Part shown: positions 44,724 to 64,000 of the stretch, piece by piece
Position numbering within the stretch: the first letter of the stretch is position 1
Layout of the letters: every line of letters starts with the position of its first letter
DNA from: Cupriavidus pauculus
GTDB lineage: Bacteria; Pseudomonadota; Gammaproteobacteria; Burkholderiales; Burkholderiaceae
Length of the DNA stretch: 64,000 nucleotides
Assembly (NCBI RefSeq): GCF_003854935.1
Contig: NZ_CP033969.1
Location: 2,790,001 to 2,854,000 of the forward strand
Direction of reading: 5' to 3'
The notes under the pieces: generated by a model
What the model was told of the DNA's origin: nothing
The model's input: the letters and a program-made list of their open reading frames with translations, nothing else
Database searches by the model: none
Position numbers and translations under genes: made by a program

Positions 44724-47700
44724 ATGAACAAGAATCGGTATCGCCGCGTATTCAGCAAGCATCTCGGCATGCTTGTGGCCGTTGCGGAGAATGTGAAGAG
44801 CCGCGGCAAGGCGCCGGGTGAAGGCAGCGCCGCGGAGGCATCGCCCCAACTGGGCGTGGTATCGGCGATGACGGCCATCGCCCTCGCCCTGTTTGCCTGG
44901 GACATGGATGAGGTCCGTGCCCAAGGACTGCCGACCCAGGGCAACGTCGTGGCTGGCCAGGCCACCATCTCGCAGCCGAACGGCTCGACGATGACGATCA
45001 ATCAGGGCAGCCAGCGCGCTGTCATCGACTGGAACAGCTTCAGCATCGGCCAGGGCAACACGGTCCAGTTCAACCAGCCCAACGCACAGGCCCAGGCGCT
45101 GAACCGCGTCACGGGTGGGCTCCCCTCCAATATCCACGGCTCGCTGCTCGCCAACGGGCAGGTGCTGATCCAGAACGCCAACGGCGTGCTGTTCGGACGC
45201 GGCGCAGTGGTCAATGTCGGCTCGCTGCTGGCCACCACCAAGTCCATCGACTCCAACGCCTTCATGGCCGGCAGCCCGCTGGCACTGAGTGCCACCGGCA
45301 CGCAGGCCGGCATCATCAACGAAGGTTCGATCAACGCCCAAGGCTATGTGACCTTCATGGGCGACCAGGTCCGCAACGCGGGCGACATCAAGACCGGCCC
45401 GGGCGGACAAGTCCTGCTGGCCGCTGGCGATAGCGCCACGGTCGCGCTGCACAACGGCCAGGGCATCTCGCTGGTGCTCAACGACGCCACCGCCAACGCG
45501 CTGGCGGAAAACAGCGGCAACATCCATGCACAAGACGGCACGGTCCTCATTACCGCGCGCGGCAAGGACACGCTGCTGAACACGGTGGTGAACCTGTCCG
45601 GTGTGGTCCGCGCCGGCACGGTCGTGGCCGACGCCGGCAAGACCGGCGACGTGGTCATGACCGGCAGCATCGACGCCTCGAACCGCAACGGCGGCCAGGG
45701 CGGCACGGTGGTACTGGCCGGCGACCGCGTCGGCCTGTTCGACAGCGCCTCGATCGACGCTTCGGGCGACTCGGCTGGCGGCAAGGTGATCCTTGGTGGC
45801 GATTCGCTCGGCAAGCTGGAAGGCACCGAAGCGCGCAAGCTGCTGCAGGACGGTGCTGGCTTCGCCAACTTTACGCAGGTGGGCGTTAACGCGCGGGTCG
45901 ATGCCGGTGCACGGCATGGCGATGGCGGGTTCGTGGAAACCTCGGCTCACAACCTCAACGTCCAAGGCACGGTGACCGCCTCAACGCCGAACGGCAAGTC
46001 TGGCGAATGGTTGATCGATCCGACCGATATCACTATCGGCACAGGTAACGATGCTGGCTACAGCGGTAGCGTCTCGGGCGGCTTCACGCCCACGGGCAGC
46101 ACTGCCACGGTTCGCAACACGTCCATCAACGACGCCCTGAACGCAGGCACCGACGTCACGATCACCACGGCCAGCTCAGGTACGGCGGCCGGGAATATCG
46201 TGCAGAGCGCCGGTGCCGACATTACAAAGACCGGCGGCGGCGCGGCGAATCTCACGCTGGTGGCAAACAGATCGATTACCCTCAACGGCAATATCACGTC
46301 CACCTCCGATGCGCTGAATCTGAATCTGACCTCGGGGATGGGCGGCGGATATGGCACCGTTTTCCAAGCAAGCGGCAGAACCATCGACTTGAATGGCGGA
46401 CGGTTAACGGCGTACGGGGACACGACAAGCGCCTCAAGCGGCCATGCCATCAACATAAGCGGCACCCTGGCAAATATCGGCGGCGGCACCATTACGGGCT
46501 TTAGCGCCGGCAGCATTGGCGTGTATATGAACACCGCCCTGACGCAGGTGGGTGGCAGCCTCTCCATCTATGGCAGTTCCCGCTCGCAGACCGGCATCTA
46601 TATTGACAACGGATCCAACCTTACGATCTCCGGAGGCTCGCAACTGGTCATCAATGGGGACGGTGGCGGCTACGACGGCATCATGCACCGCGGCGTTCTT
46701 ACCCTCAATGATGATGCCGCCGTCAGCTTGATTGGCAACACGACGGGCAATTTGTACTCGGGCATTCGTCTCAACACGCTCAAGATTACAGTCAACAACA
46801 ACGCCTCGCTGGATATCGAAGGCCGCTCCACGGGCTCAGGAATCGACTCGCAAGCCGTGACGATCCTGGGTGGCAATTACGCGACCAGCAGCATCTCGGT
46901 CTCGGGCAACGGGGTCGTCAACATTACCGGCGTAGGCAACTACGCGGAAGGTATTCGAGCCTGCGGTCCGACGTCTATCAATATCTCGGACAACGGCGCG
47001 GTGAACCTCACCGGTACATCGAACAACGAGTCAGGCATATGGTTCGACACACTTCGGTATGACCTTCAGAACAACGCCACGCTGAATCTCAGCGGCAGCG
47101 GTAACGGAACGAATCCCGAATGGGCCGGCGTGGCTATCCTTGGCCAAGGATCCATGTCCGGAGACAGCAAGCTGACAGTCAACGGCGACGGACCCAAGGC
47201 CGCCGGTGTACGTTGGCAAGGTACGTTGAATATGTCGGGAAACGCGACCGTCGACATGACCGGCCAGTCGGATACCCAGGACGGCGTACTGATCCAAACC
47301 GTCATCAACGCCACTGACGATGCTCGAATCAACGTTTCGGGCACGTCGCGCGCCAACACCGCCACCTCAGCCGGCGTGCGCTTCGCATCCAACTCCAGCC
47401 TGAATCTCTCTGGAAACGTGAAGACCGACATCACTGGCGATTCGCGGTACCGCGAAGGGGTCCATTTCCAGGGTGGCGTCAACATCACCGACAACGCCTA
47501 CATGAACGCTACCGGCACCTCCAGCGGTGGCGGTGACGCGGGCATCGGCGTGCGCGTGGGCACCACCAGCAACATTACCGTGAACGGCAACGGTACTGCC
47601 GTCCTGACGGGCGCCGCCCCCGACGGCCGCGACCACGCGCTAGAAGGCCGCATGCGGGTAAACGGAAACGGTGCCATCCACATCCTGACCGGCGATCGCG

Positions 47701-48713
47701 TCGCGCCTACCGATGGCAACGGCAACGGCCCGGACGGTAACGGCGCGGACGGTGGCAACGGCTCCGACGGTGGTAACGGCACCGACGGCGGCAATGGCTC
47801 CGACGGTGGCAATGGCACGGACGGTGGCAACGGCTCCGACGGTGGCAACGGCTCCGACGGTGGCAACGGCTCCGACGGTGGCAACGGCTCCGACGGTGGC
47901 AACGGCTCCGACGGTGGCAACGGCTCCGACGGTGGCAACGGCTCCGACGGTGGCAACGGCTCCGACGGTGGCAATGGCACGGACGGTGGCAACGGCTCCG
48001 ACGGTGGCAACGGCTCCGACGGTGGCAATGGCGCGGACGGTGGCAACGGCTCCGATGGTGGCAATGGCTCCGACGGCGGCAACGGCACCGACGGTGGCAA
48101 TGGCTCCGACGGCGGCAATGGCACTGACGGTGGCAACGGCACCGATGGTGGCAACGGCTCCGACGGTGGTAACGGCTCGAACGGTGGCAACGGCTCCGAC
48201 GGCGGCGACAAGACGCCTGACGGTGGTTCGGACGGCTCAGGCGGTTCGGGCTCGGGTGGCTCCAACTCGGGCGCCACGGCCGGTGCGATCCTGGGCGCGG
48301 TTGGCGCAGGCGGTATCCTTGCCTACGTGATCGACGACCTGGCCGACGCAAGCTGGTACCTCGATGCCCCGGTGCCCCTGACCGTCGAGTCCGACGAGGA
48401 CAAGGCGTGGGGAGGTGCGCTGATGTCGGGTGCCACCGTGGAGGTGAAGGGCACGACTGCCATTGTCCAGGTGAAGACACGCACCGGCACGGTCGAGCGG
48501 GTCCTGACCCTGCAGGACGGCGCCAACGGCACCAAGCACTTCGTCTACGAGGACCCCGTCACCAAGACCAAGGCCGATCTGGCGGTGAACATGGAGACAC
48601 GCGAGTTCTTCTACACCGAAGCCGGTGCCCCGAACGGCAAGCGATACGTCGTGAAGAGCCACGGCTGGCTGAAGAACGGCACGCCCTCAAAAGCTGCCGC
48701 TCCGGCAAGCTGA
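44724..48713 (+). CDS. TpsA-type filamentous-haemagglutinin-like exoprotein 1 (NGSDGG stalk)
   Basis: 1329 residues from ATG 44724. Order: extended signal peptide region of type V secretion (MNKNRYRRVFSKHLGMLVAVAE, then a hydrophobic core and cleavage near A-Q-G, about residue 75); TPS/haemagglutination-activity domain (about 76-330; 'VVAGQATISQPNGSTMTINQ', 'NIHGSLLANGQVLIQNANGVLFG'); a beta-helix-like region rich in 'NGxxNITGxGN' turns (about 330-996); 25 acidic hexapeptides (about 1009-1158); and a conserved C-terminal domain (1159-1329) with a Gly/Ala-rich hydrophobic segment 'GATAGAILGAVGAGGILAYVIDDL'. Such proteins are exported by a TpsB pore, absent from this window. Probable surface adhesin or filament; function inferred from family. 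Confidence 0.88.
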   Translation: MNKNRYRRVFSKHLGMLVAVAENVKSRGKAPGEGSAAEASPQLGVVSAMTAIALALFAWDMDEVRAQGLPTQGNVVAGQATISQPNGSTMTINQGSQRAVIDWNSFSIGQGNTVQFNQPNAQAQALNRVTGGLPSNIHGSLLANGQVLIQNANGVLFGRGAVVNVGSLLATTKSIDSNAFMAGSPLALSATGTQAGIINEGSINAQGYVTFMGDQVRNAGDIKTGPGGQVLLAAGDSATVALHNGQGISLVLNDATANALAENSGNIHAQDGTVLITARGKDTLLNTVVNLSGVVRAGTVVADAGKTGDVVMTGSIDASNRNGGQGGTVVLAGDRVGLFDSASIDASGDSAGGKVILGGDSLGKLEGTEARKLLQDGAGFANFTQVGVNARVDAGARHGDGGFVETSAHNLNVQGTVTASTPNGKSGEWLIDPTDITIGTGNDAGYSGSVSGGFTPTGSTATVRNTSINDALNAGTDVTITTASSGTAAGNIVQSAGADITKTGGGAANLTLVANRSITLNGNITSTSDALNLNLTSGMGGGYGTVFQASGRTIDLNGGRLTAYGDTTSASSGHAINISGTLANIGGGTITGFSAGSIGVYMNTALTQVGGSLSIYGSSRSQTGIYIDNGSNLTISGGSQLVINGDGGGYDGIMHRGVLTLNDDAAVSLIGNTTGNLYSGIRLNTLKITVNNNASLDIEGRSTGSGIDSQAVTILGGNYATSSISVSGNGVVNITGVGNYAEGIRACGPTSINISDNGAVNLTGTSNNESGIWFDTLRYDLQNNATLNLSGSGNGTNPEWAGVAILGQGSMSGDSKLTVNGDGPKAAGVRWQGTLNMSGNATVDMTGQSDTQDGVLIQTVINATDDARINVSGTSRANTATSAGVRFASNSSLNLSGNVKTDITGDSRYREGVHFQGGVNITDNAYMNATGTSSGGGDAGIGVRVGTTSNITVNGNGTAVLTGAAPDGRDHALEGRMRVNGNGAIHILTGDRVAPTDGNGNGPDGNGADGGNGSDGGNGTDGGNGSDGGNGTDGGNGSDGGNGSDGGNGSDGGNGSDGGNGSDGGNGSDGGNGSDGGNGSDGGNGTDGGNGSDGGNGSDGGNGADGGNGSDGGNGSDGGNGTDGGNGSDGGNGTDGGNGTDGGNGSDGGNGSNGGNGSDGGDKTPDGGSDGSGGSGSGGSNSGATAGAILGAVGAGGILAYVIDDLADASWYLDAPVPLTVESDEDKAWGGALMSGATVEVKGTTAIVQVKTRTGTVERVLTLQDGANGTKHFVYEDPVTKTKADLAVNMETREFFYTEAGAPNGKRYVVKSHGWLKNGTPSKAAAPAS
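47748..48197 (+). repeat. 18-bp coding tandem repeat, 25 units (NGSDGG type)
   Basis: Exactly 450 bases, in frame, as 25 units reading DGGNG(S/T/A), one with Asn for Asp near the end. It is preceded by one DGNGNGP heptapeptide unit (47712) of the kind that forms the whole stalk of the next gene, so the two repeat types are related. Glycine falls at every third position throughout. Confidence 0.92.
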
Positions 48714-48762
48714 TTGCGGGCTCTCAACTAGAAGCTACTAGCTAGCATCTGCCTGTAGGAAA

Positions 48763-48804
48763 ACGATGTGCCGGTGTCGAAAGACGTCGGCACATCGTCC
48801 TTTT
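48763..48804 (+). terminator. Long GNRA-capped hairpin after exoprotein gene 1
   Basis: ACGATGTGCCG pairs with CGGCACATCGT and the stem continues through G-U pairs to a GAAA tetraloop, about 16 bp in all, followed by CCTTTT. Shape and position indicate a rho-independent terminator. The same hairpin follows genes 2 and 3. Confidence 0.75.
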
Positions 48805-48853
48805 CCGAGGGGCAATCAGAATCTGTTGGCCCCCGACTCCACTTCCCGAGTCA

Positions 48854-48987
48854 TCGTAGTTCTACGAAATATTTCACCGGGCTCTGCGCAGACCCCCGTC
48901 GCTTCGCGACGCTGCGACATTCTCATGCAACCCCGCTGCGTGTTTCGTGTTTCTACGATTCCCCGCCCTTCCCCAGGTTTCTAGCAT
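48854..48987 (+). promoter_or_regulatory. Conserved control region, exoprotein gene 2
   Basis: TCGTAGTTCTACGA (48854-48867) and TCGTGTTTCTACGA (48945-48958) lie 91 bases apart, with TAGCAT (48982-48987) 23 bases beyond the second site, matching gene 1 in order and spacing although the DNA between the sites differs. Confidence 0.5.
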
Positions 48988-49178
48988 TGCCATCAAGGAG
49001 ATCGCGGGACCCGGTACGACCACAGACCGCGCGGCAACTCAAGTAAGCGCGCCCCCCGATCCCGAGCTAGAGCGGGTCAACTCGCGTTCCATGAATTGAC
49101 GCACGACGCCTGCATCGGCCGCCTTACTGAAGGCAGAGCCGAGCCGCGTCACGTCGCAACTTCTGTTGGGTTTCAACC

Positions 49179-52100
49179 ATGAACAAGAATCGGTATCGCC
49201 GCGTATTCAGCAAGCATCTCGGCATGCTTGTGGCCGTAGCGGAAAATGTGAAGAGCCGCGGCAAGGCGCCTGGGGAAGGCGCCGCTGCGGAGGCATCGCC
49301 CCAACTGGGCGTGGTATCGGCGATGACGGCCATCGCCCTCGCCCTGTTTGCCTGGGACATGGATGAAGTCCGTGCCCAAGGACTGCCGACCCAGGGCAAC
49401 GTCGTGGCCGGTCAGGCCACCATCTCGCAGCCCAACGGCTCGACGATGACCATCAATCAGGGCAGCCAGCGCGCTGTCATCGACTGGAACAGCTTCAGCA
49501 TCGGCCAGGGCAACACGGTCCAGTTCAACCAGCCCAACGCACAGGCCCAGGCGCTGAACCGCGTCACCGGCGGCCTCCCCTCCAATATCCACGGCTCGCT
49601 GCTCGCCAACGGCCAGGTGCTGATCCAGAACGCCAACGGCGTGCTGTTCGGCCGGGGCGCAGTGGTCAACGTCGGCTCGCTGCTCGCAACGACGAAATCC
49701 ATCGACTCCAACGCCTTCATGGCCGGCAGCCCGCTGGCACTGAGCGCCACCGGCACGCAGGCCGGCATCATCAACGAAGGCTCCATCAACGCCCAGGGTT
49801 ACGTGACCTTCATGGGCGATCAGGTCCGCAACGCGGGCGACATCAAGACCGGCCCGGGCGGCCAAGTCCTGCTGGCCGCTGGCGATAGCGCCACGGTGGC
49901 CCTGCACAACGGCCAGGGCATTTCCCTCGTCCTCAACGACGCCACCGCCAACGCGCTGGCTGAAAACAGCGGCAACATCCATGCACAAGACGGCACGGTC
50001 CTCATTACCGCGCGCGGCAAGGACACGCTGCTCAATACGGTGGTGAACCTGTCCGGCGTGGTCCGCGCCGGCACGGTCGTGGCCGATGCTGGCAAGACCG
50101 GCGACGTGGTCATGACCGGCCGCATCGACGCCTCGAACCGCAATGGCGGCCAGGGCGGCACGGTGGTACTGGCTGGCGACCGCGTCGGCCTGTTCGACAG
50201 CGCCTCGATCGACGCCTCGGGCGACTCGGCCGGCGGCAAGGTGATCCTTGGTGGTGACTCGCTGGGCAAGCTCGAAGGTACGGAAGCTCGCAAGCTGCTG
50301 CAGGACGGTGCTGGCTTCGCCAACTTCACGCAGGTGGGTGTCAACGCCCGGGTCGATGCCGGTGCACGGCATGGCGACGGTGGGTTCGTGGAGACGTCAG
50401 CCCACGACCTCAACGTCCAGGGCACGATCACTGCCTCAGCGCCGAACGGCAAGTCTGGCGAATGGTTGATCGATCCGACCAACATCACCATCGGCACAGG
50501 TAACGATGCTGGCTACAGCGGTAGCGTCTCGGGAGGCTTCACGCCCACGGGCAGCACCGCCACGGTTCGCAACACGTCCATCAACGACGCCCTGAACGCA
50601 GGCACCGACGTCACGATCACCACGGGCAGCTCAGGTACGGCGACCGGGAACATCGTGCAGAACACCGGTGCCGACATTACAAAGACCGGCGGCGGCGCGG
50701 CGAGTCTCACGCTGGTGGCAAATGGATCGATTACCCTCAACGGCAATATCACATCCACCTCCGATGCGCTGAACCTGAACCTTACCGCTGGGATGGGCGG
50801 CGGATATGGCAATGTCACCCAGGCAAGCAACAGAACCATCGATCTGAATGGTGGACGATTGATTACTTACGGGGATGCGTCAAGCGCCTCTATTGGCAAC
50901 GGAGTGGTCTTCTACGGCAACCTGGCCAATATCGGCGGCGGTTTCATCACCGGCTTCAGCCGCGGTAGCACTGGTGTGTACCTGAACGGTACCGTGACGC
51001 AAGTAGGCGGCACGCTCGTTATCTACGGCACTTCCGGTACGGCGTCTGGTATTTATATCGACAGAGGAGCCGACCTTCAGATATCCGGAAACTCGTTCTT
51101 GGACCTTACCGGGGATAGCACAAGCCTCGACGGCATTATGCATCGCGGCAAACTGAGTGTTACCGACAATGCCTCGGTCAGCATAGCTGGCAATACGACG
51201 AGTTACTCGTATTCCGGAGTCCACCTGGATAACCTCAGTTTGTCGGCCTCCGGCAATGGCGTCATCAACGTTGCGGGCAACGCGAACAGATCGTTTGGCG
51301 TCCGGGGCACAGGAGCTTCACTCAACATTTCGGACAATGCCGCGATCAACCTTAACGGCACATCCAACAGCGAGGCAGGTGTCTGGCTCTACAGAAGCCG
51401 GTACGACCTGAGCGATAACGCGACACTTGATATCAGCGGGCGCGGCAATAGCACGATTGGAAATTGGGCCGAGACTGTGGTCGACGGAAGCGGGAACATG
51501 TCTGGAAACAGCAAGGTGACTGCCGACGGTCGGGGGGAAGGAACTGGCGGGGTGATTTGGCGAGGCAACCTGAATATGTCGGGCAACGCTACCCTCGACT
51601 TGACCGGCGACTCGGGAAGCCAGGACGGTGTGCGAGTCCAGACCGTTATCAACGCCACTGACGATGCTCGGATCAACGTTACGGGCACGTCCCGCGCCGA
51701 CACCGTCAACGGGTCCGGCGTGCGCATCGCGTTCAATGGCGGGCTGAATTTGTCAGGCAACGCGACGACCGAGATTATCGGCAATTCCCGTTACCGCGAA
51801 GGGGTCTACTTCGAGGGCAACGTCAGCATCACCGATAACGCCAACATGAACGCTGCGGGTACCTCCAATGGTAGCGGCACGTATGGCGCCGGGGTGCGCG
51901 TCGGAACGGGCAGCACGATCACAGCAAGCGGAAACGGTACCGGCAACTTGATCGGCTACGCGCCGGAAGGCCGCAATCACCTGATCGAAGGCCGGCTGGT
52001 GGAACTGGAGAACGGTGATATCAACCTCTTGGACGGGCCATACGTGCCGAACGGCGGTGGCAACGGCACCGATGGGAATGGTAACGGCCCGGACGGCAAT

Positions 52101-55100
52101 GGCAACGGCCCAGACGGCAACGGCAATGGCCCAGACGGTAACGGCAACGGTCCTGACGGTAACGGCAACGGCCCGGATGGGAACGGTAACGGCCCCGATG
52201 GGAACGGCAACGGTCCCGACGGCAATGGCAACGGCCCCGATGGGAACGGTAACGGCCCCGACGGCAATGGCAACGGCCCGGACGGTAACGGCAACGGCCC
52301 GGATGGGAACGGTAACGGCCCCGATGGGAACGGCAACGGTCCCGACGGCAATGGCAACGGCCCCGACGGCAACGGCAACGGCCCCGACGGCAACGGTAAC
52401 GGTCCCGACGGGAACGGCAACGGCCCGGACGGCAATGGCAACGGTCCCGATGGCAACGGCAACGGTCCCGACGGTAACGGCAACGGCCCGGACGGTAACG
52501 GCAATGGCCCCGACGGTAACGGCAATGGCCCGGACGGTAACGGCAACGGTCCCGACGGTAACGGCAACGGTCCCGATGGGAACGGCAACGGCCCGGACGG
52601 TAACGGCAACGGTCCCGACGGTAACGGCAACGGCCCGGATGGGAACGGCAACGGTCCCGACGGCAACGGCAATGGCCCGGACGGCAACGGTAACGGCCCC
52701 GACGGGAACGGCAACGGCCCCGACGGCAACGGCAATGGCCCGGACGGTAACGGCAACGGCCCCGACGGCAACGGCAATGGCCCGGACGGTAACGGCAACG
52801 GCCCGGACGGTAACGGCAATGGCCCCGACGGTAACGGCAATGGCCCGGACGGCAATGGCAATGGCCCGGACGGAAACGGTAACGGCCCGGACGGCAATGG
52901 CAATGGCCCCGATGGGAACGGCAACGGCCCGGACGGTAACGGCAACGGTCCCGACGGGAACGGCAACGGCCCGGACGGCAATGGCAACGGCCCCGACGGC
53001 AACGGCAATGGCCCGGACGGAAACGGTAACGGCCCGGACGGCAATGGCAACGGCCCCGACGGCAACGGCAATGGCCCGGACGGGAACGGTAATGGCCCGG
53101 ACGGCAATGGCAATGGCCCCGATGGGAACGGCAACGGCCCGGACGGTAACGGCAATGGCCCCGATGGGAACGGCAACGGTCCCGACGGCAATGGCAACGG
53201 TCCCGACGGGAACGGCAACGGTCCCGATGGGAACGGCAACGGCCCGGACGGCAACGGCAACGGTCCCGACGGTAACGGCAACGGTCCCGACGGTAACGGC
53301 AACGGCCCGGACGGTAACGGCAATGGCCCCGACGGTAACGGCAATGGCCCGGACGGCAATGGCAATGGCCCGGACGGAAACGGTAACGGCCCGGACGGTA
53401 ACGGCAACGGTCCCGACGGTAACGGCAACGGTCCCGATGGGAACGGCAACGGCCCGGACGGTAACGGCAACGGTCCCGACGGTAACGGCAACGGCCCGGA
53501 TGGGAACGGCAACGGTCCCGACGGAAACGGCAACGGTCCGGACGGAAACGGCAACGGCCCCGATGGGAACGGTAACGGTCCCGACGGGAACGGCAACGGC
53601 CCGGACGGCAATGGCAACGGCCCCGATGGGAACGGTAACGGCCCGGACGGCAACGGCAACGGTCCCGACGGTAACGGCAACGGTCCCGACGGTAACGGCA
53701 ACGGTCCCGACGGTAACGGCAACGGCCCGGACGGTAACGGCAATGGCCCCGACGGTAACGGCAATGGCCCGGACGGCAATGGCAATGGCCCGGACGGAAA
53801 CGGCAACGGCCCGGACGGCAACGGCAACGGTCCCGACGGTAACGGCAATGGCCCGGACGGCAATGGCAATGGCCCGGACGGAAACGGTAACGGCCCGGAC
53901 GGTAACGGCAACGGTCCCGATGGGAACGGTAACGGTCCCGATGGGAACGGCAACGGCCCGGACGGGAACGGCAACGGCCCGGACGGTAACGGCAACGGTC
54001 CCGACGGTAACGGCAACGGCCCGGATGGGAACGGCAACGGTCCCGACGGAAACGGCAACGGTCCCGACGGAAACGGCAACGGCCCGGACGGAAACGGCAA
54101 CGGCCCCGATGGGAACGGTAACGGTCCCGACGGGAACGGCAACGGCCCGGACGGCAATGGCAACGGCCCCGATGGGAACGGTAACGGCCCGGACGGCAAC
54201 GGCAACGGTCCCGACGGTAACGGCAACGGCCCCGATGGGAACGGCAATGGCCCCGACGGCAACGGCAATGGCCCTGACGGAAACGGCAACGGCCCCGATG
54301 GGAACGGCAATGGCCCCGATGGCAATGGCAACGGCCCTGACGGAAACGGCAACGGCCCCGATGGGAACGGAAACGGTCCCGACGGCAATGGCAACGGCCC
54401 TGACGGAAACGGCAACGGCCCCGATGGGAACGGAAACGGTCCCGACGGCAATGGCAACGGCCCGGACGGTAACGGCAATGGCCCCGACGGTAACGGCAAT
54501 GGCCCGGACGGCAATGGCAATGGCCCGGACGGAAACGGTAACGGCCCGGACGGCAATGGCAACGGCCCCGATGGGAACGGAAACGGCCCCGATGGGAACG
54601 GAAACGGTCCCGACGGTAACGGCAACGGACCTGACGGCAACGGCAACGGCCCCGACGGCAACGGCAATGGCTCCGACGGCGGTAACGGCTCGAACGGTGG
54701 CAACGGCTCCGACGGCGGCGACAAGACGCCGGACGGTGGTTCGGACGGCTCAGGCGGTTCGGGCTCGGGTGGCTCCAACTCGGGTGCCACGGCCGGTGCG
54801 ATCCTGGGCGCGGTTGGCGCGGGCGGTATCCTCGCCTACGTGATCGACGACCTGGCCGGCGCAAGCTGGTACCTCGATGCCCCGGTGCCCCTGACCGTCG
54901 AGTCCGATGAGGACAAGGCGTGGGAAGGTGCGCTGATGTCGGGTGCCACCGTGGAGGTGAAGGGCACGACTGCCATCGTCCAGGTGAAGACACGCACCGG
55001 GACGGTCGAGCGGGTCCTGACCCTGCAGGACGGCGCCAACGGCACCAAGCACTTCGTCTACGAGGACCCCGTCACCAAGACCAAGGCCGATCTGGCGGTG

Positions 55101-55315: not shown

Positions 55316-55446
55316 CCGTTTACGGTCATCCGGTACGAAGACCAGCCGCGCCGCCCTGCCCGGCCATCGCAGCTCTCCCAGGCAGGCGTGTCGATCCTCC
55401 GGCACCCCGTCCCCCTCCCTTGCCCTTCAGCAAGTAAACCGTGATT

Positions 55447-55489
55447 TCGCGTTTCTGCGATTTCCCCTGGCAGGCCGCCTTTTTAGCAT
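55447..55489 (+). promoter_or_regulatory. Conserved control site, exoprotein gene 3
   Basis: TCGCGTTTCTGCGA (55447-55460) is the counterpart of site 2, with TAGCAT (55484-55489) again exactly 23 bases further. The upstream perfect palindrome (site 1) seen before the other genes is absent, so regulation may differ. Confidence 0.45.
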
Positions 55490-55751
55490 TGGCCGCCAAG
55501 GAATCGCAGAAGCCTCTTCCCGGTCATCCCCGACCGCCACACAGCGAAGCAGCCCCTTCCCGCCGCCAGCCACGACAGTCGCGTGGCGCTGCGGCCCGGC
55601 TAGCGAACGTGGCCCCGATTCCGAGCTAGGGCGGCTCGTCCGCCATCCATGCATCGACGTTCGACGCTCAGCCTCGGAATCCGTTGGCGCCGCCACAGGG
55701 CGGCGTGCCCACGCGGCGCGCGACGTCACACCTTTGTCGGGTGACATATAT

Positions 55752-58700
55752 ATGAACAAGAATCGGTATCGCCGTATCTTCAGCAAGCGACTTGGCATGC
55801 TTGTCGCCGTCGCGGAAAACGTCAGGGGCGAAGGCAAGGCACCGGGTGCGGGCGGCGACAGCCCCTCCGGCGCGCCGCCGGGCGTGGTTTCGGCCATGAC
55901 GGCCGTGGCCTTGGCACTGCTGACGTGGGACATCGGCGAGGCGCGCGCCCAGGCGCTGCCAACGCACGGCAACGTCGTGGCCGGCCAGGCCACGATCTCG
56001 CAGCCGAATGGCCATACGATGACCATCGATCAAGGCAGCCAGCGTGCTGTCATCGACTGGAACACTTTCAACGTCGGCCAGGGCAACACGGTCCAGTTCA
56101 ACCAGCCCAACGCGCAGGCCCAGGCGCTGAACCGCGTGATCGGCGGCCTGCCCTCCAATATCCATGGTTCCCTGCTGGCCAACGGCCAGGTGCTGATCCA
56201 GAACGCCAACGGCGTGCTGTTCGGCAAGGGCGCCGTGGTCAACGTTGGCGCGCTGCTGGCCACCACCAAGTCGATCGACGCCAATGCCTTCATGGCCGGC
56301 AATTCGCTGGTGCTGGGCGCCACCGGCACCCACGCCGGCATCATCAATGAAGGCGCGATCCGCGCGCAGGGTTTTGTGACCCTGGTCGGCGATCAGGTCC
56401 GGAATACCGGAGACATCCGCACCGCCGACGGCGGTCAGATCGTCCTGGCGGCCGGCGATAGCGCCACGGTGGCGCTGCACAACGGCCAGGGCATTTCCCT
56501 CGTCCTCAACGACGCCACCGCAAACGCGCTGGTGGAAAACAGCGGCAACATCCACGCGCAGGACGGCACGGTGCTGATTACCGCGCGCGGCAAGGACACG
56601 CTGCTCAATACCGTGGTGAACCTGTCCGGCGTGATCCGTGCCGGCACGGTCGTGGCGGACGCCGGCAAGACCGGCGACGTGGTCATGACCGGCCGCATCG
56701 ACGCCTCGCACACCGCGCCGGGCGGCCGGGGCGGCACCGTGGTGCTGGCCGGCCATCGCGTGGGCCTGCTGGGCCAGGCCACCATCGACGCGTCGGGCGA
56801 CGCCGCCGGCGGTCAGGTCATCCTTGGGGGCGACAGCCTCGGCAAGCTGTCCGGCACACCCACGGCCAACCTGCTCCAGGACGGCGTCACGATCGCCAGC
56901 CTGACACAGGTCGCCGACGGCGCCAGCGTCATGGCAGACGCGCTCAACGGCGACGGCGGCTTTGTCGAAACGTCCGGCCTCGGACTGGACGTGCGCGGAT
57001 CGATCAGCGCCACCGCTCCCAACGGCAAGGCCGGCGCGTGGCTGATCGACCCGACGGACATCACGATCAGCACGGGCGAGGATGCCGGCCATACCGGCAA
57101 CCTGGACGAGTTTCGGACAACCAACAGCACGGCAAACATCCGCAACACGTCGATCAGCAACGCCCTGAACCGCGGCACCGATGTGACGATCACCACCGCC
57201 GGCACCGGCGCGGTCAAGGGCAACATCACGCAGGAACGCGGCGCCGACATCGTCAAGACCGGCGGCCGCACGGCCAACCTGACGCTGCTGGCCGATGGCG
57301 ACATCCTGCTGGCCGGCAACATCACGGCCAGCGGCCACCATATGAATCTCGACATCCGGGCCGGCATCGGCAACCGGGACGGCGGCGTCCACATCGACGG
57401 CGGCAGCATCGACCTCGCCGGCGGCCACCTGAGCGCGGCGGGCGACGTGACCCGATCATCCAGCAACTTTACCCCCGGTGTCTACATCGGCGGCACGATC
57501 CGCCACGTGGGCGGCCTGACGCTGGAGGGCAGCGCGAAGTTCGGCCCGGGCGTGGCCATCATGACCAACGTCGCCATCGACAGCAACGGCGAAATGGGCG
57601 ATGGCATCCTGGACATCACCGGCCGCTCCACCGGGGGCGCCGGGGTCTACGTGGCGCCTGGGGCCCAGCTCTTCATCGATGGCAACGGCACGGGCAGTAT
57701 TCACGGTACATCGATACAAGGATCGGGCGTGCACATCGCCGGGAACGGCCTCACAGTCTCCGGCAATCGCATCGTCAATGTCACGGGTACATCCAGCAGC
57801 GGATACGGGGTGCAGTTCGGCACGCGGCAGTCGAGCGCCATCCTGACCGCCAGCCAGCACGGGACGATCAACGTCGAGGGCCGCTCGGACACCGGCACCA
57901 GCGTCGGCGGATACCGCCCCATCGTCAACGAACGCGGCGCCGGCACGGTGAACCTGCCAAACTTGGACGACACCAACGCCTGGGCCGACGATCCGGATGA
58001 CGGGACCGAGGGTGGGAATGGCTCCGAGGGTGGGAATGGCTCCGAGGGTGGCAATGGCTCCGAGGGTGGGAATGGCTCCGGGGGTGGCAATGGCTCCGAG
58101 AGTGGCAACGGCTCCGACGGTGGCAATGGCTCCGAGGGTGGCAACGGCTCCGAAGGCGGTAACGGCTCCGAGGGCGGTAACGGCTCCGAAGGTGGTAACG
58201 GCTCCGAAGGTGGTAACGGCTCCGAGGGCGGTAATGGCTCCGAAGGCGGCAACGGCTCCGAAGGTGGTAATGGCTCCGAGGGCGGTAATGGCACCGAAGG
58301 CGGCAATGGCGCCGAGGGCGGTAATGGCTCCGAAGGCGGCAATGGCACCGAAGGCGGCAATGGCTCCGAGGGCGGCAACGGCTCCGAGGGCGGTAATGGC
58401 ACCGAGGGCGGCAACGGCTCCGAGGGCGGTAATGGCACCGAGGGTGGCAACGGCTCAGAGGGCGGCAATGGCACCGAAGGTGGCAACGGCTCCGAGGGCG
58501 GTAATAGCACCGAAGGCAACGGCTCCGAAGGTGGCAATGGCACCGAGGGTGGCAATAGCTCCGAAGGGGGTAACGGCACCGAAGGCGGCAATGGCTCCGA
58601 AGGCGGTAATGGCACCGAAGGCGGTAATGGCGCCGAAGGTGGCAACGGCACCGAAGGTGGCAATGGCTCCGAGGGCGGCAATGGCTCCGAGGGCGGCAAT

Positions 58701-61226
58701 GGCTCCGAGGGCGGCAATGGCGCCGAGGGCGGTAACGGCTCCGAAGGTGGTAACGGCTCCGAAGGTGGCAACGGCTCCGAGGGCGGCAACGGCTCCGAGG
58801 GTGGCAACGGCTCCGAAGGCGGCAATGGCTCCGAAGGCGGCAATGGCTCCGAGGGCGGCAATGGCTCCGAGGGTGGCAACGGCTCCGAAGGTGGCAATGG
58901 CTCCGAAGGCGGCAATGGCGCCGAGGGTGGCAACGGCACCGAGGGCGGTAACGGCTCCGAAGGTGGCAACGGCTCCGAGGGCGGCAACGGCTCCGAGGGC
59001 GGTAACGGCACCGAAGGTGGCAACGGCTCCGAAGGTGGCAACGGCTCCGAAGGTGGCAACGGCTCCGAAGGTGGCAACGGCTCCGAAGGTGGCAACGGCT
59101 CCGAAGGCGGCAACGGGACCGAAGGCGGCAACGGGACCGAAGGTGGCAATGGCTCCGAGGGCGGCAATGGCGCCGAGGGTGGCAACGGCTCTGAAGGCGG
59201 CAACGGCTCCGAAGGTGGCAACGGCTCCGAAGGCGGCAATGGCTCCGAAGGTGGCAACGGCTCCGAAGGCGGCAACGGCTCCGAGGGCGGTAATGGCTCC
59301 GAAGGTGGCAATGGCTCCGAGGGCGGTAATGGCGCCGAGGGCGGCAATGGCGCCGAGGGTGGCAACGGCTCTGAAGGCGGCAACGGCTCCGAAGGTGGCA
59401 ACGGCACCGAGGGCGGCAACGGCACCGAGGGCGGCAATGGCACCGAGGGCGGTAATGGCTCCGAAGGCGGCAATGGCACCGAGGGCGGCAATGGCTCCGA
59501 AGGTGGCAATGGCTCCGAGGGCGGCAACGGCTCCGAAGGCGGCAACGGCTCCGAAGGTGGGAACGGCTCCGAAGGCGGCAACGGCTCCGAAGGCGGTAAC
59601 GGCTCCGAAGGTGGCAATGGCTCCGAAGGCGGCAATGGCACCGAAGGTGGCAACGGCTCCGAGGGCGGCAACGGCTCCGAAGGCGGCAATGGCTCCGAAG
59701 GCGGTAACGGCTCCGAGGGCGGTAATGGCGCCGAAGGTGGCAATGGCTCCGACGGTGGCAATGGCTCCGAAGGCGGCAACGGCTCCGAAGGTGGTAACGG
59801 CACAGAAGGCGGCAACAGCTCCGAGGGTGGCAACGGCACCGAAGGCGGCAACGGCACAGAGGGTGGCAACGGCGCCGAAGGTGGTAACGGCACCGAAGGT
59901 GGCAATGGCTCCGAAGGCGGCAATGGCACCGAAGGTGGCAACGGCTCCGAAGGTGGCAATGGCACCGAAGGTGGCAACGGCTCCGAAGGTGGTAACGGCT
60001 CCGAAGGTAACGGCACCGAAGGTGGCAACGGCTCCGAAGGTGGGAACGGCTCCGAAGGCGGCAACGGCGCCGAAGGTGGCAACGGCTCCGAAGGTGGTAA
60101 CGGCTCCGAAGGTAACGGCACCGAAGGTGGCAACGGCTCCGAAGGTGGGAACGGCTCCGAAGGCGGCAACGGCGCCGAGGGCGGCAACGGCGCCGAAGGC
60201 GGCAATGGCACCGAAGGCGGTAACGGCTCCGAAGGCGGCAATGGCTCTGAAGGCGGCAACGGCACGGAAGGCGGCAACGGCACCGAAGGCGGCAATGGCG
60301 CCGAGGGCGGTAACGGCTCCGAAGGTGGTAACGGCTCCGAAGGCGGCAATGGCTCCGAAGGCGGCAATGGCTCCGAAGGCGGTAATGGCACCGAAGGTGG
60401 CAATGGGACCGAAGGTGGCAATGGGACCGAAGGCGGCAATGGCTCCGAGGGCGGCAATGGCTCCGAGGGCGGCAACGGCACCGAAGGCGGCAACGGCACC
60501 GAAGGCGGTAACGGCTCCGAAGGTGGCAATGGCTCCGAAGGTGGCAATGGCTCCGAAGGCGGCAATGGCACCGAAGGTGGCAACGGCTCCGAGGGCGGCA
60601 ACGGCTCCGAGGGCGGTAACGGCACCGAAGGTGGCAATGGCGCCGAAGGCGGCAACGGCTCCGAAGGTGGCAACGGCGCCGAAGGTGGCAACGGCACCGA
60701 CACCGGCAGCAAGACCCCCGACGGCAACATCACCGACGGTAACGGGTCAGCCCCGGAACAGTCTGGCGGATCGAGCAGCTCCGGCGCCACCGCTGGCGCG
60801 ATCATGGGCGCGGTCGGCGTGGGCGGCATCCTGGCTTACGTGATCGATGACATGGCCGAGGGCCGTTGGTATCTCGATACGTCCGTACCGCTGACAGTGG
60901 AAGTTGATGAAGCCAAGTCCTGGCAAGGCGCCGCGATGTCGGGTGCGGCCGTGAAGCTGGAAGGCAACGTGGCCGTCGTCCAGATAAAAACATCGACAGG
61001 AACGGTCGAGCGCACGCTGACGTTGCAGGATGGCGCCAACGGCACCAAGCACTTCGTCTACGAGGACCCGGTCACCAAGACCAAGGCCGATCTGGCGGTG
61101 AACATGGAGACACGCGAGTTCTTCTACACCGAAGCCGGTGCCCCGAACGGCAAGCGATACGTCGTGAAGAGCCACGGCTGGCTGAAGAACGGCACGCCCT
61201 CAAAAGCTGCCGCTCCGGCAAGCTAA
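55752..61226 (+). CDS. TpsA-type exoprotein 3 (NGSEGG stalk)
   Basis: 1824 residues from ATG 55752 (MNKNRYRRIFSKRLGMLVAVAENVRGEG). ESPR, signal core and TPS domain (about 1-330) are homologous to proteins 1, 2 and 4 but clearly more diverged (e.g. 'ALPTHGN', 'NTFNVGQG'). The beta-helix-like part is shorter (about 420-750). Residues 753-1649 are about 150 glutamate-based repeats EGGNG(S/T/A). The C-terminal domain (1650-1824) starts diverged ('SSGATAGAIMGAVGVGGILAYVIDDMAEGRWYL') but its last ~65 residues are identical to protein 1, a sign of gene conversion. One or two 'D' units (NGSDGG) occur inside the E array. Role as above. Confidence 0.88.
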   Translation: MNKNRYRRIFSKRLGMLVAVAENVRGEGKAPGAGGDSPSGAPPGVVSAMTAVALALLTWDIGEARAQALPTHGNVVAGQATISQPNGHTMTIDQGSQRAVIDWNTFNVGQGNTVQFNQPNAQAQALNRVIGGLPSNIHGSLLANGQVLIQNANGVLFGKGAVVNVGALLATTKSIDANAFMAGNSLVLGATGTHAGIINEGAIRAQGFVTLVGDQVRNTGDIRTADGGQIVLAAGDSATVALHNGQGISLVLNDATANALVENSGNIHAQDGTVLITARGKDTLLNTVVNLSGVIRAGTVVADAGKTGDVVMTGRIDASHTAPGGRGGTVVLAGHRVGLLGQATIDASGDAAGGQVILGGDSLGKLSGTPTANLLQDGVTIASLTQVADGASVMADALNGDGGFVETSGLGLDVRGSISATAPNGKAGAWLIDPTDITISTGEDAGHTGNLDEFRTTNSTANIRNTSISNALNRGTDVTITTAGTGAVKGNITQERGADIVKTGGRTANLTLLADGDILLAGNITASGHHMNLDIRAGIGNRDGGVHIDGGSIDLAGGHLSAAGDVTRSSSNFTPGVYIGGTIRHVGGLTLEGSAKFGPGVAIMTNVAIDSNGEMGDGILDITGRSTGGAGVYVAPGAQLFIDGNGTGSIHGTSIQGSGVHIAGNGLTVSGNRIVNVTGTSSSGYGVQFGTRQSSAILTASQHGTINVEGRSDTGTSVGGYRPIVNERGAGTVNLPNLDDTNAWADDPDDGTEGGNGSEGGNGSEGGNGSEGGNGSGGGNGSESGNGSDGGNGSEGGNGSEGGNGSEGGNGSEGGNGSEGGNGSEGGNGSEGGNGSEGGNGSEGGNGTEGGNGAEGGNGSEGGNGTEGGNGSEGGNGSEGGNGTEGGNGSEGGNGTEGGNGSEGGNGTEGGNGSEGGNSTEGNGSEGGNGTEGGNSSEGGNGTEGGNGSEGGNGTEGGNGAEGGNGTEGGNGSEGGNGSEGGNGSEGGNGAEGGNGSEGGNGSEGGNGSEGGNGSEGGNGSEGGNGSEGGNGSEGGNGSEGGNGSEGGNGSEGGNGAEGGNGTEGGNGSEGGNGSEGGNGSEGGNGTEGGNGSEGGNGSEGGNGSEGGNGSEGGNGSEGGNGTEGGNGTEGGNGSEGGNGAEGGNGSEGGNGSEGGNGSEGGNGSEGGNGSEGGNGSEGGNGSEGGNGSEGGNGAEGGNGAEGGNGSEGGNGSEGGNGTEGGNGTEGGNGTEGGNGSEGGNGTEGGNGSEGGNGSEGGNGSEGGNGSEGGNGSEGGNGSEGGNGSEGGNGSEGGNGTEGGNGSEGGNGSEGGNGSEGGNGSEGGNGAEGGNGSDGGNGSEGGNGSEGGNGTEGGNSSEGGNGTEGGNGTEGGNGAEGGNGTEGGNGSEGGNGTEGGNGSEGGNGTEGGNGSEGGNGSEGNGTEGGNGSEGGNGSEGGNGAEGGNGSEGGNGSEGNGTEGGNGSEGGNGSEGGNGAEGGNGAEGGNGTEGGNGSEGGNGSEGGNGTEGGNGTEGGNGAEGGNGSEGGNGSEGGNGSEGGNGSEGGNGTEGGNGTEGGNGTEGGNGSEGGNGSEGGNGTEGGNGTEGGNGSEGGNGSEGGNGSEGGNGTEGGNGSEGGNGSEGGNGTEGGNGAEGGNGSEGGNGAEGGNGTDTGSKTPDGNITDGNGSAPEQSGGSSSSGATAGAIMGAVGVGGILAYVIDDMAEGRWYLDTSVPLTVEVDEAKSWQGAAMSGAAVKLEGNVAVVQIKTSTGTVERTLTLQDGANGTKHFVYEDPVTKTKADLAVNMETREFFYTEAGAPNGKRYVVKSHGWLKNGTPSKAAAPAS
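58008..60698 (+). repeat. 18-bp coding tandem repeat, about 150 units (EGGNGS/T/A)
   Basis: 2691 bases in frame: about 147 hexapeptide units plus three shortened 5-residue units (EGNGS/T) near 58514, 60004 and 60109. The last two are 105 bases apart and start identical ~70-base segments, so part of the array grew by block duplication. Ser, Thr and Ala alternate at one position; Glu is replaced by Asp only rarely. Confidence 0.92.
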
Positions 61227-61276
61227 TTGCGGGCTCTCAACTAGAAGCTACTAGCTAGCATCTGCCTGTAGGGAAA

Positions 61277-61318
61277 ACGATGTGCCGGTGTCGAAAGACG
61301 TCGGCACATCGTCCTTTT
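61277..61318 (+). terminator. Long GNRA-capped hairpin after exoprotein gene 3
   Basis: Identical stem, GAAA loop and CCTTTT tail to the hairpin after gene 1. Confidence 0.75.
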
Positions 61319-61367
61319 CCGAGGGGCAATCAGAATCTGTTGGCCCCCGGCTCCACTTCCCAAGTCA

Positions 61368-61501
61368 TCGTAGTTCTACGAAATATTTCACCGGGCTCTG
61401 CGCAGACCCCCGTCGCTTCGCGACGCTGCGACATTCTCATGCAACCCCGCTGCGTGTTTCGTGTTTCTACGATTCCCCGCCCTTCCCCAGGTTTCTAGCA
61501 T
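61368..61501 (+). promoter_or_regulatory. Conserved control region, exoprotein gene 4
   Basis: TCGTAGTTCTACGA (61368-61381) and TCGTGTTTCTACGA (61459-61472) are 91 bases apart, with TAGCAT 23 bases after the second (61496-61501), as before gene 2. Confidence 0.5.
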
Positions 61502-61692
61502 TGCCATCAAGGAGATCGCGGGACCCGGTACGACCACAGACCGCGCGGCAGCTCAAGTAAGCGCGCCCCCCGATCCCGAGCTAGAGCGGGTCAACTCGCG
61601 TTCCATGAATTGACGCACGACGCCTGCATCGGCCGCCTTCCTGAAGGCAGAGCCGAGCCGCGTCACGTCGCAACTTCTGTTGGGTTTCAACC

Positions 61693-64000
61693 ATGAACAA
61701 GAATCGGTATCGCCGCGTATTCAGCAAGCATCTCGGCATGCTTGTGGCCGTTGCGGAAAATGTGAAGAGCCGCGGCAAGGCGCCTGGTGAAGGCGCCGCT
61801 GCGGAGGCATCGCCCCAACTGGGCGTGGTATCGGCGATGACGGCCATCGCCCTCGCCCTGTTTGCCTGGGACATGGACGAAGCCCGTGCCCAAGGACTCC
61901 CGACCCAGGGCAACGTCGTGGCCGGCCAGGCCACCATCTCGCAGCCCAATGGCTCGACGATGACCATCAATCAGGGCAGCCAGCGCGCTGTCATCGACTG
62001 GAACAGCTTCAGCATCGGCCAGGGCAACACGGTCCAGTTCAACCAGCCCAACGCACAGGCCCAGGCGCTGAACCGCGTCACGGGTGGCCTCCCCTCCAAT
62101 ATCCACGGCTCGCTGCTGGCCAACGGGCAGGTGCTGATCCAGAACGCCAACGGCGTGCTGTTCGGACGCGGCGCAGTGGTCAATGTCGGCTCGCTGCTGG
62201 CCACCACCAAGTCCATCGACTCCAACGCCTTCATGGCCGGCAGCCCGCTGGCACTGAGCGCCACCGGCACGCAGGCCGGCATCATCAACGAAGGCTCCAT
62301 CAACGCCCAAGGCTATGTGACCTTCATGGGCGATCAGGTCCGCAACGGGGGCAACATCAAGACCGGCCCGGGCGGCCAAGTCCTGCTGGCCGCTGGCGAT
62401 AGCGCCACGGTGGCCCTGCACAACGGCCAGGGCATCTCGCTGGTCCTCAACGACGCCACCGCCAACGCGCTGGCGGAAAACAGCGGCAACATCCATGCAC
62501 AAGACGGCACGGTGCTGATTACGGCACGCGGCAAGGACACGCTGCTCAATACGGTGGTGAACCTGTCCGGCGTGGTCCGCGCCGGCACGGTCGTGGCCGA
62601 TGCTGGCAAGACCGGCGACGTGGTCATGACCGGCCGCATCGACGCCTCCAACCGCAACGGCGGCCAGGGCGGCACGGTGGTGCTGGCCGGCGACCGCGTC
62701 GGCCTGTTCGACAGCGCCTCGATCGACGCCTCGGGCGACTCGGCTGGCGGCAAGGTGATTCTTGGCGGCGATTCGCTGGGCAAGCTCGAAGGCACCGAAG
62801 CGCGCAAGCTGCTGCAGGACGGTGCTGGCTTCGCCAACTTTACGCAGGTGGGTGTCAACGCCCGGGTCGATGCCGGTGCACGGCATGGCGACGGCGGGTT
62901 CGTGGAGACGTCAGCCCACGACCTTAACGTCTTCGGCACCGTGACCGCCGCAGCCCCGAACGGCAAGTCGGGTGACTGGCTGATCGATCCGACCGACATC
63001 ATCATCACCACGTGGGATTCCGGCTACACCGGCAGCGTCAGCGACGGATTTACGGCGGGCACCACCGGAGCCAAGGTCAGCAACACGTCGATCAACAACG
63101 CGCTGAACAACGGCACGGACGTCATGATCAGCACCGCCAGCTCGGGTCCCGCGGCCGGCAATATCACGCAGCAAGCGAATATCACAAAGACCTCTGGTGC
63201 CGCGGCCAACCTCACGATGATTGCGCAGGGGAATGTCTCCCTGACCCGCATCACCACAACTGGCGAGGCCATCAATCTCACCATTCGGGCGGGCGAAGGC
63301 ACCGGCAAGGGCAGAGTGACATCGACTACAGATACCGTCCTCGACCTGGGCGGCGGCTACCTCGATATCGCGGCGACGTCGGAACTTCGCGGCACTCATG
63401 GCGCCGTGGAGCTTTACGGCCGCACATCGAATATCGGTGGCGCGACGATCGTCGGCCATGGGAATCTGGGGATGGGCGTTATCCTGAGTAACTTCACCGT
63501 CCTTGGCGACGGCCATCTGGAAGTCATCGGCACGTCGAAGGGCTATTACCATGGGGTAATGTTCAGCGGGACGGTGAACATCGGTGGCAATGGCACTGCT
63601 AACATTTCTGGCACGTCGACCGATAATTCTGGGGTATACCTTGGCGGGCAACTCAACGTGTCCGGCAACCGCACGGTTAACTTCAACGGTAAATCCCGCG
63701 ACAGCTACGGTGTGTACATGCAGAGCCCCGGCCTCACCGCCAGCGAGAACGGGACCATCAACATCAACGGCCGATCGGAGAATGGGACCGGCATCTACAT
63801 CTCAGGCAGCCAAGTCGAGCGGGATAACGGCGAGATCAACTTCAACAGCCAAGACCGTGCAGGTCCAGAACCCGTTGTGCCCCCGGACGACGGTAACGGC
63901 TCGAACGGCGGCAATGGCACCGACGGCAATGGTTCCAACGGTGGCAACGGCCCCGACGGGAACGGTGACGGCCCCGACGGGAACGGCAATGGGCCCGACG
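61693..64000 (+). CDS. TpsA-type exoprotein 4, partial (runs off the right edge)
   Basis: About 769 codons from ATG 61693, open to the window end. The first ~415 residues (ESPR, signal, TPS domain) are almost identical to protein 2. The next segment diverges ('GTVTAAAPNGKSGDWLIDPTDIIITTWDSGYTGS') and forms its own shorter beta-helix-like region with 'NISGTSTDNSGVYLGGQLNVSGN' turns. From 63889 it enters a stalk mixing hexapeptide (NGSNGG, NGTDG) and heptapeptide (NGPDGNGDGPDGNGNGPD) units, so its repeat type appears to be that of protein 2 or a mixture. Confidence 0.85.
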   Translation, partial: MNKNRYRRVFSKHLGMLVAVAENVKSRGKAPGEGAAAEASPQLGVVSAMTAIALALFAWDMDEARAQGLPTQGNVVAGQATISQPNGSTMTINQGSQRAVIDWNSFSIGQGNTVQFNQPNAQAQALNRVTGGLPSNIHGSLLANGQVLIQNANGVLFGRGAVVNVGSLLATTKSIDSNAFMAGSPLALSATGTQAGIINEGSINAQGYVTFMGDQVRNGGNIKTGPGGQVLLAAGDSATVALHNGQGISLVLNDATANALAENSGNIHAQDGTVLITARGKDTLLNTVVNLSGVVRAGTVVADAGKTGDVVMTGRIDASNRNGGQGGTVVLAGDRVGLFDSASIDASGDSAGGKVILGGDSLGKLEGTEARKLLQDGAGFANFTQVGVNARVDAGARHGDGGFVETSAHDLNVFGTVTAAAPNGKSGDWLIDPTDIIITTWDSGYTGSVSDGFTAGTTGAKVSNTSINNALNNGTDVMISTASSGPAAGNITQQANITKTSGAAANLTMIAQGNVSLTRITTTGEAINLTIRAGEGTGKGRVTSTTDTVLDLGGGYLDIAATSELRGTHGAVELYGRTSNIGGATIVGHGNLGMGVILSNFTVLGDGHLEVIGTSKGYYHGVMFSGTVNIGGNGTANISGTSTDNSGVYLGGQLNVSGNRTVNFNGKSRDSYGVYMQSPGLTASENGTININGRSENGTGIYISGSQVERDNGEINFNSQDRAGPEPVVPPDDGNGSNGGNGTDGNGSNGGNGPDGNGDGPDGNGNGPD
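63889..64000 (+). repeat. Start of the stalk repeat of exoprotein 4 (partial)
   Basis: The first 112 bases of an in-frame repeat. It opens with mixed units and ends in three DGNG(N/D)GP heptapeptides at the window edge; total length unknown. Confidence 0.75.

Follow-up and report, generated by a model that had tools for sequence, protein, structure and literature searches.

Tandem TpsA exoproteins with sequon-rich and sequon-poor repeat stalks in Cupriavidus pauculus: probable members of an N-glycosylated two-partner secretion system

A 64,000-nucleotide stretch of the Cupriavidus pauculus genome (G000:C2:2790001-2854000; genome of 6.18 Mb in four contigs), hereafter called the window, carries four adjacent paralogues of the two-partner secretion (TPS) exoprotein gene tpsA. 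These genes, A1 to A4, extend on the plus strand from position 44724 to 66354. They probably encode TpsA exoproteins of an HMW1/EtpA-like N-glycosylated two-partner system, in which tpsA has been amplified away from a pore gene and enzyme genes located on another contig, C3. Expression of the genes, export of all products in trans by the C3 TpsB, glycosylation of the N-x-S/T sequons in the stalks, stretching of the fiber, anchoring, and adhesion are what we infer from sequence comparison. Glycosylated two-partner secretion is a kind of system already known. What is new here is an amplified array lacking pore and enzyme genes, short-unit sequon stalks together with sequon-poor counterparts, a doubled N-glycosyltransferase (NGT) with a methyltransferase/GT9-like gene, and the C-terminal domain.

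On C2, each of the four reading frames runs uninterrupted from start to stop. The extended signal peptide (ESPR; PF13018) scored above the cut-off in all four, and the TPS domain was recognized in each by TIGR01901; PF05860 matched A1 and A4 in the protein search and all four positions, above cut-off, in the genome-wide search. Each product thus combines an ESPR with an N-terminal TPS domain, by which TpsA proteins were identified. A1 (44724..48713, 1329 amino acids; open reading frame with ESPR, TPS, and adhes_NPXG matches) is composed of the ESPR (44724..44867, residues 1-48), the TPS domain (44922..45647; PF05860, residues 67-308, E 5.9e-32), a body (45744..47717), a stalk of 163 amino acids with 25 NG[S/T/A]DGG units (47718..48206), and a C-terminal region with a Gly/Ala-rich hydrophobic segment and a predicted beta-barrel domain (48207..48710). 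A2 (49179..55235, 2018 amino acids) and A3 (55752..61226, 1824 amino acids counted from the ATG of the ESPR) were likewise assigned from open reading frames and domain matches. The A2 stalk (52062..54719, 886 amino acids) contains 123 perfect NGNGPDG units and is followed by the C-terminal region at 54720..55232. In A3, the stalk (58017..60689, 891 amino acids) contains 149 units, mostly NG[S/T/A]EGG, a count equal to the number of Asn in the stalk, and the C-terminal region lies at 60690..61223. A4 (1553 amino acids in all) occupies 61693..64000 of the window and runs on to its stop at C2:2856354, equivalent to position 66354 and therefore beyond the window end; its stalk begins at 63895..64000 and lies mostly outside.

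The C-terminal domains of the other paralogues are 84 to 96% identical to that of A1. A preliminary description of this DNA had proposed four adjacent TpsA proteins with common signal, TPS, and C-terminal domains and with differing acidic stalks, which agrees with these results: the A1 to A4 stalks hold 26 to 148 Asp/Glu each and no Lys or Arg. Its "mixed" fourth stalk was an effect of the window end, since the full A4 stalk (651 amino acids) consists of 86 NGNGPDG units. The repeat arrays lie beyond chance, with Tandem Repeats Finder scores of 727 (A1), 3256 (A2), and 3241 (A3).

No tpsB adjoins A1 to A4. The whole genome contains nine TPS domains, five ShlB matches, and five copies of the A1-type C-terminal domain, and none of the five ShlB matches falls inside the window, as the preliminary description had stated when it proposed a search of the neighborhood for tpsB. 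A candidate partner was found outside the window, on C3, beside a fifth paralogue, A5 (locus L022, 8459-14763, minus strand). Directly after A5, and on the same strand, follow tpsB (8362-6419), NGT1 (6364-4511), a methyltransferase gene with weak GT9 similarity that stays below the cut-off (4510-2705), and NGT2 (2319-415). Thus, an HMW1C-type enzyme gene is present within a TPS locus, and a glycosylated two-partner system is suggested because A5 adjoins tpsB, two HMW1C-type NGT genes, and the methyltransferase/GT9-like gene, whose product may modify or extend the Asn-linked sugar. The pairing of A1 to A4 with the C3 TpsB is proposed because the TPS domains are near-identical, and some TpsB proteins serve several TpsA proteins (PMC5422565). 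Compared with PDB sequences, the C3 TpsB gave no match at E 0.001.

NGT1 and NGT2, which are about 61% identical to each other, both match HMW1C_N and HMw1_D2 and align over approximately 590 to 600 residues with 3q3e (an HMW1C-like glycosyltransferase) and 8p0o, at E <= 3.2e-152. No other HMW1C (PF18254) gene was found in the genome, and the two stand at the C3 copy, not beside A1 to A4. We took the entry 8p0o (PDB title "Adhesin") to be the enzyme AaNGT described in PMC10507012; the 14 AaNGT residue letters taken from that paper all fit the 8p0o numbering. According to the same source, Arg177, His214, and Asp215 contact the acceptor peptide, with the +2 Thr/Ser read by Arg177 and Asp215, and contacts to UDP are listed as well. 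Of these substrate residues, covering the acceptor (+2 Ser/Thr) and the UDP-sugar, 12 of 14 are kept in NGT1 and 13 of 14 in NGT2, with Arg177, His214, and Asp215 present in both. Among matches of at least 500 residues, NGT2 is closer to the enzymes of relatives (66 to 77%) than NGT1 (57 to 64%).

The association with HMW1C-type enzymes extends to other genomes. Profile scans with the five own C-terminal domains detected no relative, and a six-row alignment detected 28 loci. Counting the genome studied here, 25 of the 399 family genomes carry the domain; a class-wide draw of 369 genomes, which again includes this genome, yielded one weak match among the 368 others, covering 43 model positions (E 4.1e-4). 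Around the domain, in regions of 20 kb or less from the 24 other genomes of the family, an HMW1C-like gene was present in 20 (G080 contributing only a piece that lies at a contig end), tpsB in 19, and a methyltransferase/GT9-like gene, whole or in pieces, in 16. HMW1C occurred in 21 of the 25 family genomes with the C-terminal domain versus 46 of the 374 without it (Fisher p 2e-14, with related genomes not being independent); the four domain-bearing genomes without HMW1C are G080, G191, G209, and G258. After overlaps were removed (loci L060-L087 and L088-L115 lie partly on the same contigs), 60 frames of relatives were reduced to 39 distinct ones, 26 of which carry 4 to 16 sequons per 100 residues ahead of the C-terminal domain. 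Where the C. pauculus proteins carry the stalk, those of the relatives show brief NG-rich linkers, for example NGSNGSNGS or, in Cupriavidus sp. D384, four NGSDGG units; NG runs reach at most 55 residues in the frames listed. Giant stalks therefore appear peculiar to the C. pauculus genome within this sample, with the caution that many relatives' genes end at contig ends and that arrays may have collapsed in assembly.

One relative deserves separate mention. In a Paraburkholderia genome (G316, matching Paraburkholderia adhaesiva ZD32-2; loci L122-L124, equivalent to G316:C4:171500-228000, and L125-L128), TpsA frames of 17,110, 9,599, and 9,367 codons, counted stop to stop, contain 2,207, 1,268, and 1,154 N-x-S/T sequons, with a strongest repeat period of 81 to 82 residues. 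These frames end in an A1-type C-terminal domain, and the genome has three HMW1C matches.

In the C. pauculus paralogues, sequons are distributed very unevenly. The hexads NG[S/T][D/E]GG repeat the N-x-S/T sequon, and NGNGPDG contains none, so that the stalks hold 24 (A1), 4 (A2), 134 (A3), 6 (A4), and 5 (A5) sequons; the parts ahead of the stalk hold 30 in A2 and 17 in A4. The residue at +2 of the 149 Asn in the A3 stalk is Ser in 97 cases, Thr in 37, and Ala in 15, and no other residue occurs there. Whole A3 has 148 sequons versus 33.4 ± 4.9 in shuffled sequences and 13 in reversed order, and whole A1 has 56 versus 21.7 ± 4.0 and 25, respectively. Frames longer than 800 amino acids at the other TPS loci of the genome contain 0 to 1.2 sequons per 100 residues; this control comprises all such frames, most of which are probably not genes, and the four that hold other TPS domains (2495, 889, 4070, and 3080 amino acids) have 1.2, 0.3, 0.5, and 0.6. 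If all sequons of the A3 stalk were used, there would be approximately one glycan per 6.6 residues (891/134).

Several observations weigh against an N-glycosylated system. Sequon counts do not rise above shuffle level in A2 and A4 as wholes or in the A5 piece, and 13 of the 39 distinct frames of relatives have fewer than 4 sequons per 100 residues. Ala stands at +2 in 15 of the 149 A3 units, and a sequon in every unit is therefore not demanded. In the bodies of A1 to A4, sequon sites are conserved no better than Asn or Ser/Thr elsewhere (p 0.17 and 0.15). EtpC, the Escherichia coli homologue, also modifies Asn outside sequons (PMC11463764), and NGNGPDG stalks might thus carry sugars after all. 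As for the enzymes, NGT1 is altered at the uracil-binding His494 (to Asp), and both NGT1 and NGT2 have Gln instead of Ser495; their scores, obtained along almost the entire length, were 651 and 661.7 bits against a cut-off of 1000 for the NCBIfam NGTferase equivalog NF049992, which places them in the same family as NF049992 but under the equivalog cut-off. Four further TpsB genes are present in the genome besides the C3 one. Finally, A5 is split in the assembly into two minus-strand frames, 14763-13474 (the TPS part) and 13780-8459 (the rest), and the exoprotein of the home locus itself may therefore be lost. Because the A5 stalk is without nonsynonymous deviation, the break would be recent or an assembly error; recent loss, switching, and misassembly may each account for it.

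Some of these points would also fit plain spacers, namely, linkers that are flexible, acidic, and hydrophilic and on which selection acts for nothing but length and solubility, in which NGS and NGT arise from residues that make good linkers (Gly, Asn, Ser, and Thr) and stalk sugars are absent or irrelevant. The tolerated Ala at +2 and the lack of site conservation among body sequons favor such linkers, as do the NGNGPDG stalks, which fill the same position almost without sequons, and the similar lengths of three stalks (A2, 886; A3, 891; and A5, 920 amino acids), although this likeness may be due to chance, given three cases. However, the tie of HMW1C genes to this exoprotein family across genera, the sequon density in 26 of the 39 frames of relatives, and the Ser codon of the hexads, which changes only to Thr and Ala and never to Pro, Phe, Tyr, or Cys, are not readily explained by linker properties. 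We consider plain spacers unlikely, though they deserve serious attention.

The codons of the repeats provide a further view of the stalks. The A5 stalk (920 amino acids) has 127 NGNGPDG units. In the 336 NGNGPDG units of A2, A4, and A5, 734 codons deviate from the commonest codon, and all 734 are synonymous. The units were chosen by peptide motif, but the spacing of perfect units is always exactly 7 residues, and therefore no deviant unit was passed over. Counted as variant types, all 13 in A2, all 12 in A4, and all 12 in A5 are synonymous, versus 15 of 63 one-step neighbors (p 1e-11, 1.7e-10, and 1.7e-10). A3 has 230 synonymous versus 62 nonsynonymous deviations, 52 of the latter being Ser to Thr/Ala at place 3 (p 1.7e-4 on types), and A1 has 16 versus 9 (p 0.0095). 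The stalk peptide, rather than the DNA, is kept by selection, as the ratio of 734 synonymous to 0 nonsynonymous deviations in NGNGPDG demonstrates. Codon scrambling, by which adjacent units would be kept different, was also considered and gave no general rule: A4 and A5 showed a weak tendency (reached by 0.9% and 0.6% of shuffles), A2 and A1 showed none, and A3 showed the opposite.

This constraint bears on whether the array on C2 is decaying or silent, with amplified copies left unsecreted for want of a nearby pore and with repeats that are slippage debris. The lack of a local tpsB and the out-of-frame C3 copy point in that direction. On the other hand, all four C2 frames are open, not one of the 477 codon deviations in the A2 and A4 arrays is nonsynonymous, which is not expected of slippage debris, and the Asn codon of A3 shows no nonsynonymous change in 149 register-walked blocks. 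Decay is hardly credible on this evidence.

A further reading is that the stalk itself is structured. By the sequence rules for RTX calcium binding and polyglycine II helices, the GGNGSD hexads might bind Ca2+, or Gly at every third position (NGS EGG) might form polyglycine II helices; such Gly spacing is present in the hexads, and GGxGxD does stand in register in the A1 stalk. However, no Pfam RTX (HemolysinCabind) match was obtained in A1 to A4 at E 0.1, the period is 6 rather than 9, a hydrophobic residue is missing, and Asp is replaced by Glu in A3. In NGNGPDG, moreover, the unit of 7 residues breaks the three-residue Gly spacing. A structured stalk of either type is quite improbable.

The paralogues are mosaics. 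TPS regions are 95 to 98% identical in nucleotide sequence among A1, A2, A4, and A5 and 84 to 85% identical to that of A3, and C-terminal regions are 78 to 95% identical. The bodies share 66 to 79% of nucleotides, except for A1 versus A5, which are 97.1% identical over 1974 nucleotides (45744..47717 in A1). These two thus have a common signal, TPS domain, and body, with a stalk of 25 NGSDGG-type units in A1 versus 127 NGNGPDG units in A5. The 470 bp upstream of A2 and of A4 are 98.9% identical, yet no identical run of units beyond shuffles is shared among the A2, A4, and A5 arrays, which indicates that stalks evolve apart from their flanks. The comparison supports stalks exchanged and resized on a common chassis, with A1 versus A5 as the clearest case. 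The modular arrangement in the preliminary description, with constant ends and a swapped spacer, is thus borne out for the TPS and C-terminal ends and for the exchange; it fails for the body between TPS domain and stalk, which is only 49 to 71% identical in amino acids among A1 to A4, and the fact that hexads, but not heptads, are N-x-S/T sequons had gone unnoticed.

The C-terminal domain is alignable over 26 rows. A structure model of the domain at 48255-48710 predicts a beta-barrel, with the barrels of NHBA, fHbp, and TbpB as the nearest. Sequence searches gave little: the best E value in Pfam was 0.013 across 26 members, the A1 copy alone obtained nothing in NCBIfam at E 0.01, and the best match among PDB sequences had an E value of 0.37. 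The C-terminal regions of the paralogues contain no Cys, and the HMW1-type anchor with two Cys is therefore lacking. The Slam translocon (PF04575), through which type XI barrel proteins such as NHBA, fHbp, and TbpB are exported, gave no match in the genome, though the control genomes gave none either. An NHBA/fHbp/TbpB-like barrel is unexpected as the end of a two-partner exoprotein. A contact-dependent inhibition (CDI)/BcpA toxin delivery protein was considered as well and finds no support in the C-terminal region, which in such proteins should vary between paralogues and strains, whereas the region here is conserved at the level given above.

Taken as an N-glycosylated two-partner system, the genes would work as follows. 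An operon-like home copy on C3 (tpsA5, tpsB, NGT1, the methyltransferase/GT9-like gene, and NGT2) would have given rise to the tandem tpsA array on C2, which has neither tpsB nor NGT. Each TpsA would be made with its extended signal peptide, and the cytoplasmic HMW1C-type enzymes encoded on C3 would add hexoses at N-x-S/T. Export would then proceed through Sec at the inner membrane and through the matching TpsB, acting in trans, at the outer membrane. The protein would display its variable body, presumably a beta-helix, on the long spacer and be retained on or close to the envelope by its conserved C-terminal region. The spacer of A1 and A3 would be a sequon array that carries a densely packed, stretched brush of sugars; that of A2, A4, and A5 would contain proline, be nearly sequon-free, and hence be largely bare.

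A more far-reaching proposal, possible but doubtful at present, is that the paralogues form a glyco-coded spacer library. One chassis and one trans pore on another replicon would serve interchangeable stalks, some with a sequon in every six residues and others kept free of it by a proline heptad. The cell could then choose between sugar-brush and bare fibers of similar residue number (886 and 891), and reach, stickiness, and protease resistance would be set by stalk sequence alone, with arrays turning over faster than their flanks while the peptide stays fixed.

The preliminary description knew of no described family with such stalks. For the system as a whole, this did not hold: the nearest kind is HMW1ABC/EtpBAC, as indicated by tpsB and the two HMW1C-like genes beside A5. 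In nontypeable Haemophilus influenzae, HMW1A/HMW1B/HMW1C likewise comprise a TpsA with extended signal and TPS domain, a TpsB, and a cytoplasmic HMW1C-type NGT in one locus, and the acceptor is Asn in NX(S/T) (PMC3983070, PMC2877744). Unlike HMW1ABC, the C. pauculus system would have four TpsA distant from pore and enzyme, two NGTs with a methyltransferase/GT9-like gene, giant short-unit stalks, and a predicted barrel-like domain instead of the Cys-bearing C-terminal region. EtpBAC of enterotoxigenic E. coli also has a repeat-bearing TpsA, EtpA, which is hexose-coated by an HMW1C homologue at a density of about one glycan per 24 residues and has four C-terminal repeat modules (PMC11463764), whereas here glycosylation is predicted and the repeat units are 6 to 7 residues long; a single stalk of 891 residues reaches 134 sequons. 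A 2014 review already noted predicted tpsA/tpsB/hmw1C-like loci in Burkholderia spp.; its available part mentions neither such stalks nor tandem arrays nor this C-terminal domain (PMC3983070). In the open-licence literature, no paper on these TPS stalks was found, as judged by title for the papers retrieved with the repeat units.

A functional likeness, with no homology claimed, exists to the serine-rich repeat glycoprotein adhesins of Gram-positive cocci, which carry a head on a very long low-complexity stalk and are glycosylated in the cytoplasm before export. They differ in export path, in their O-linked sugars, and in their cell-wall anchor.

The array is flanked upstream of A1 by a frame that we take by eye to be TonB-dependent receptor-like (41938-44217) and downstream of A4 by a presumably purT-like frame, also judged by eye (L020 4580-5824, plus strand, 414 amino acids). 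Two further tandem arrays were seen, one in the window at 22092-22570 (166 bp, 2.9 copies) and one at L020:5843-6572 (265 bp, 2.7 copies); both contain CTCTCCC/GGGAGAGGG-type segments and are similar in look to repetitive extragenic palindromic (REP) elements.

For the HMW1C-type coating of adhesins, target choice and the mechanism of tethering are listed as unknown in PMC3983070. The C. pauculus genome offers a natural contrast, with paralogous stalks that carry up to 134 acceptor sites or almost none and with the A1/A5 pair, in which nearly the same body is joined to opposite stalk types. If the proposed glycosylation is true, the hexad stalk would be an unusually regular acceptor for cytoplasmic N-glycosylation, and the effect of N-glycosylation on fiber length, stability, and adhesion would be readable from natural paralogues.

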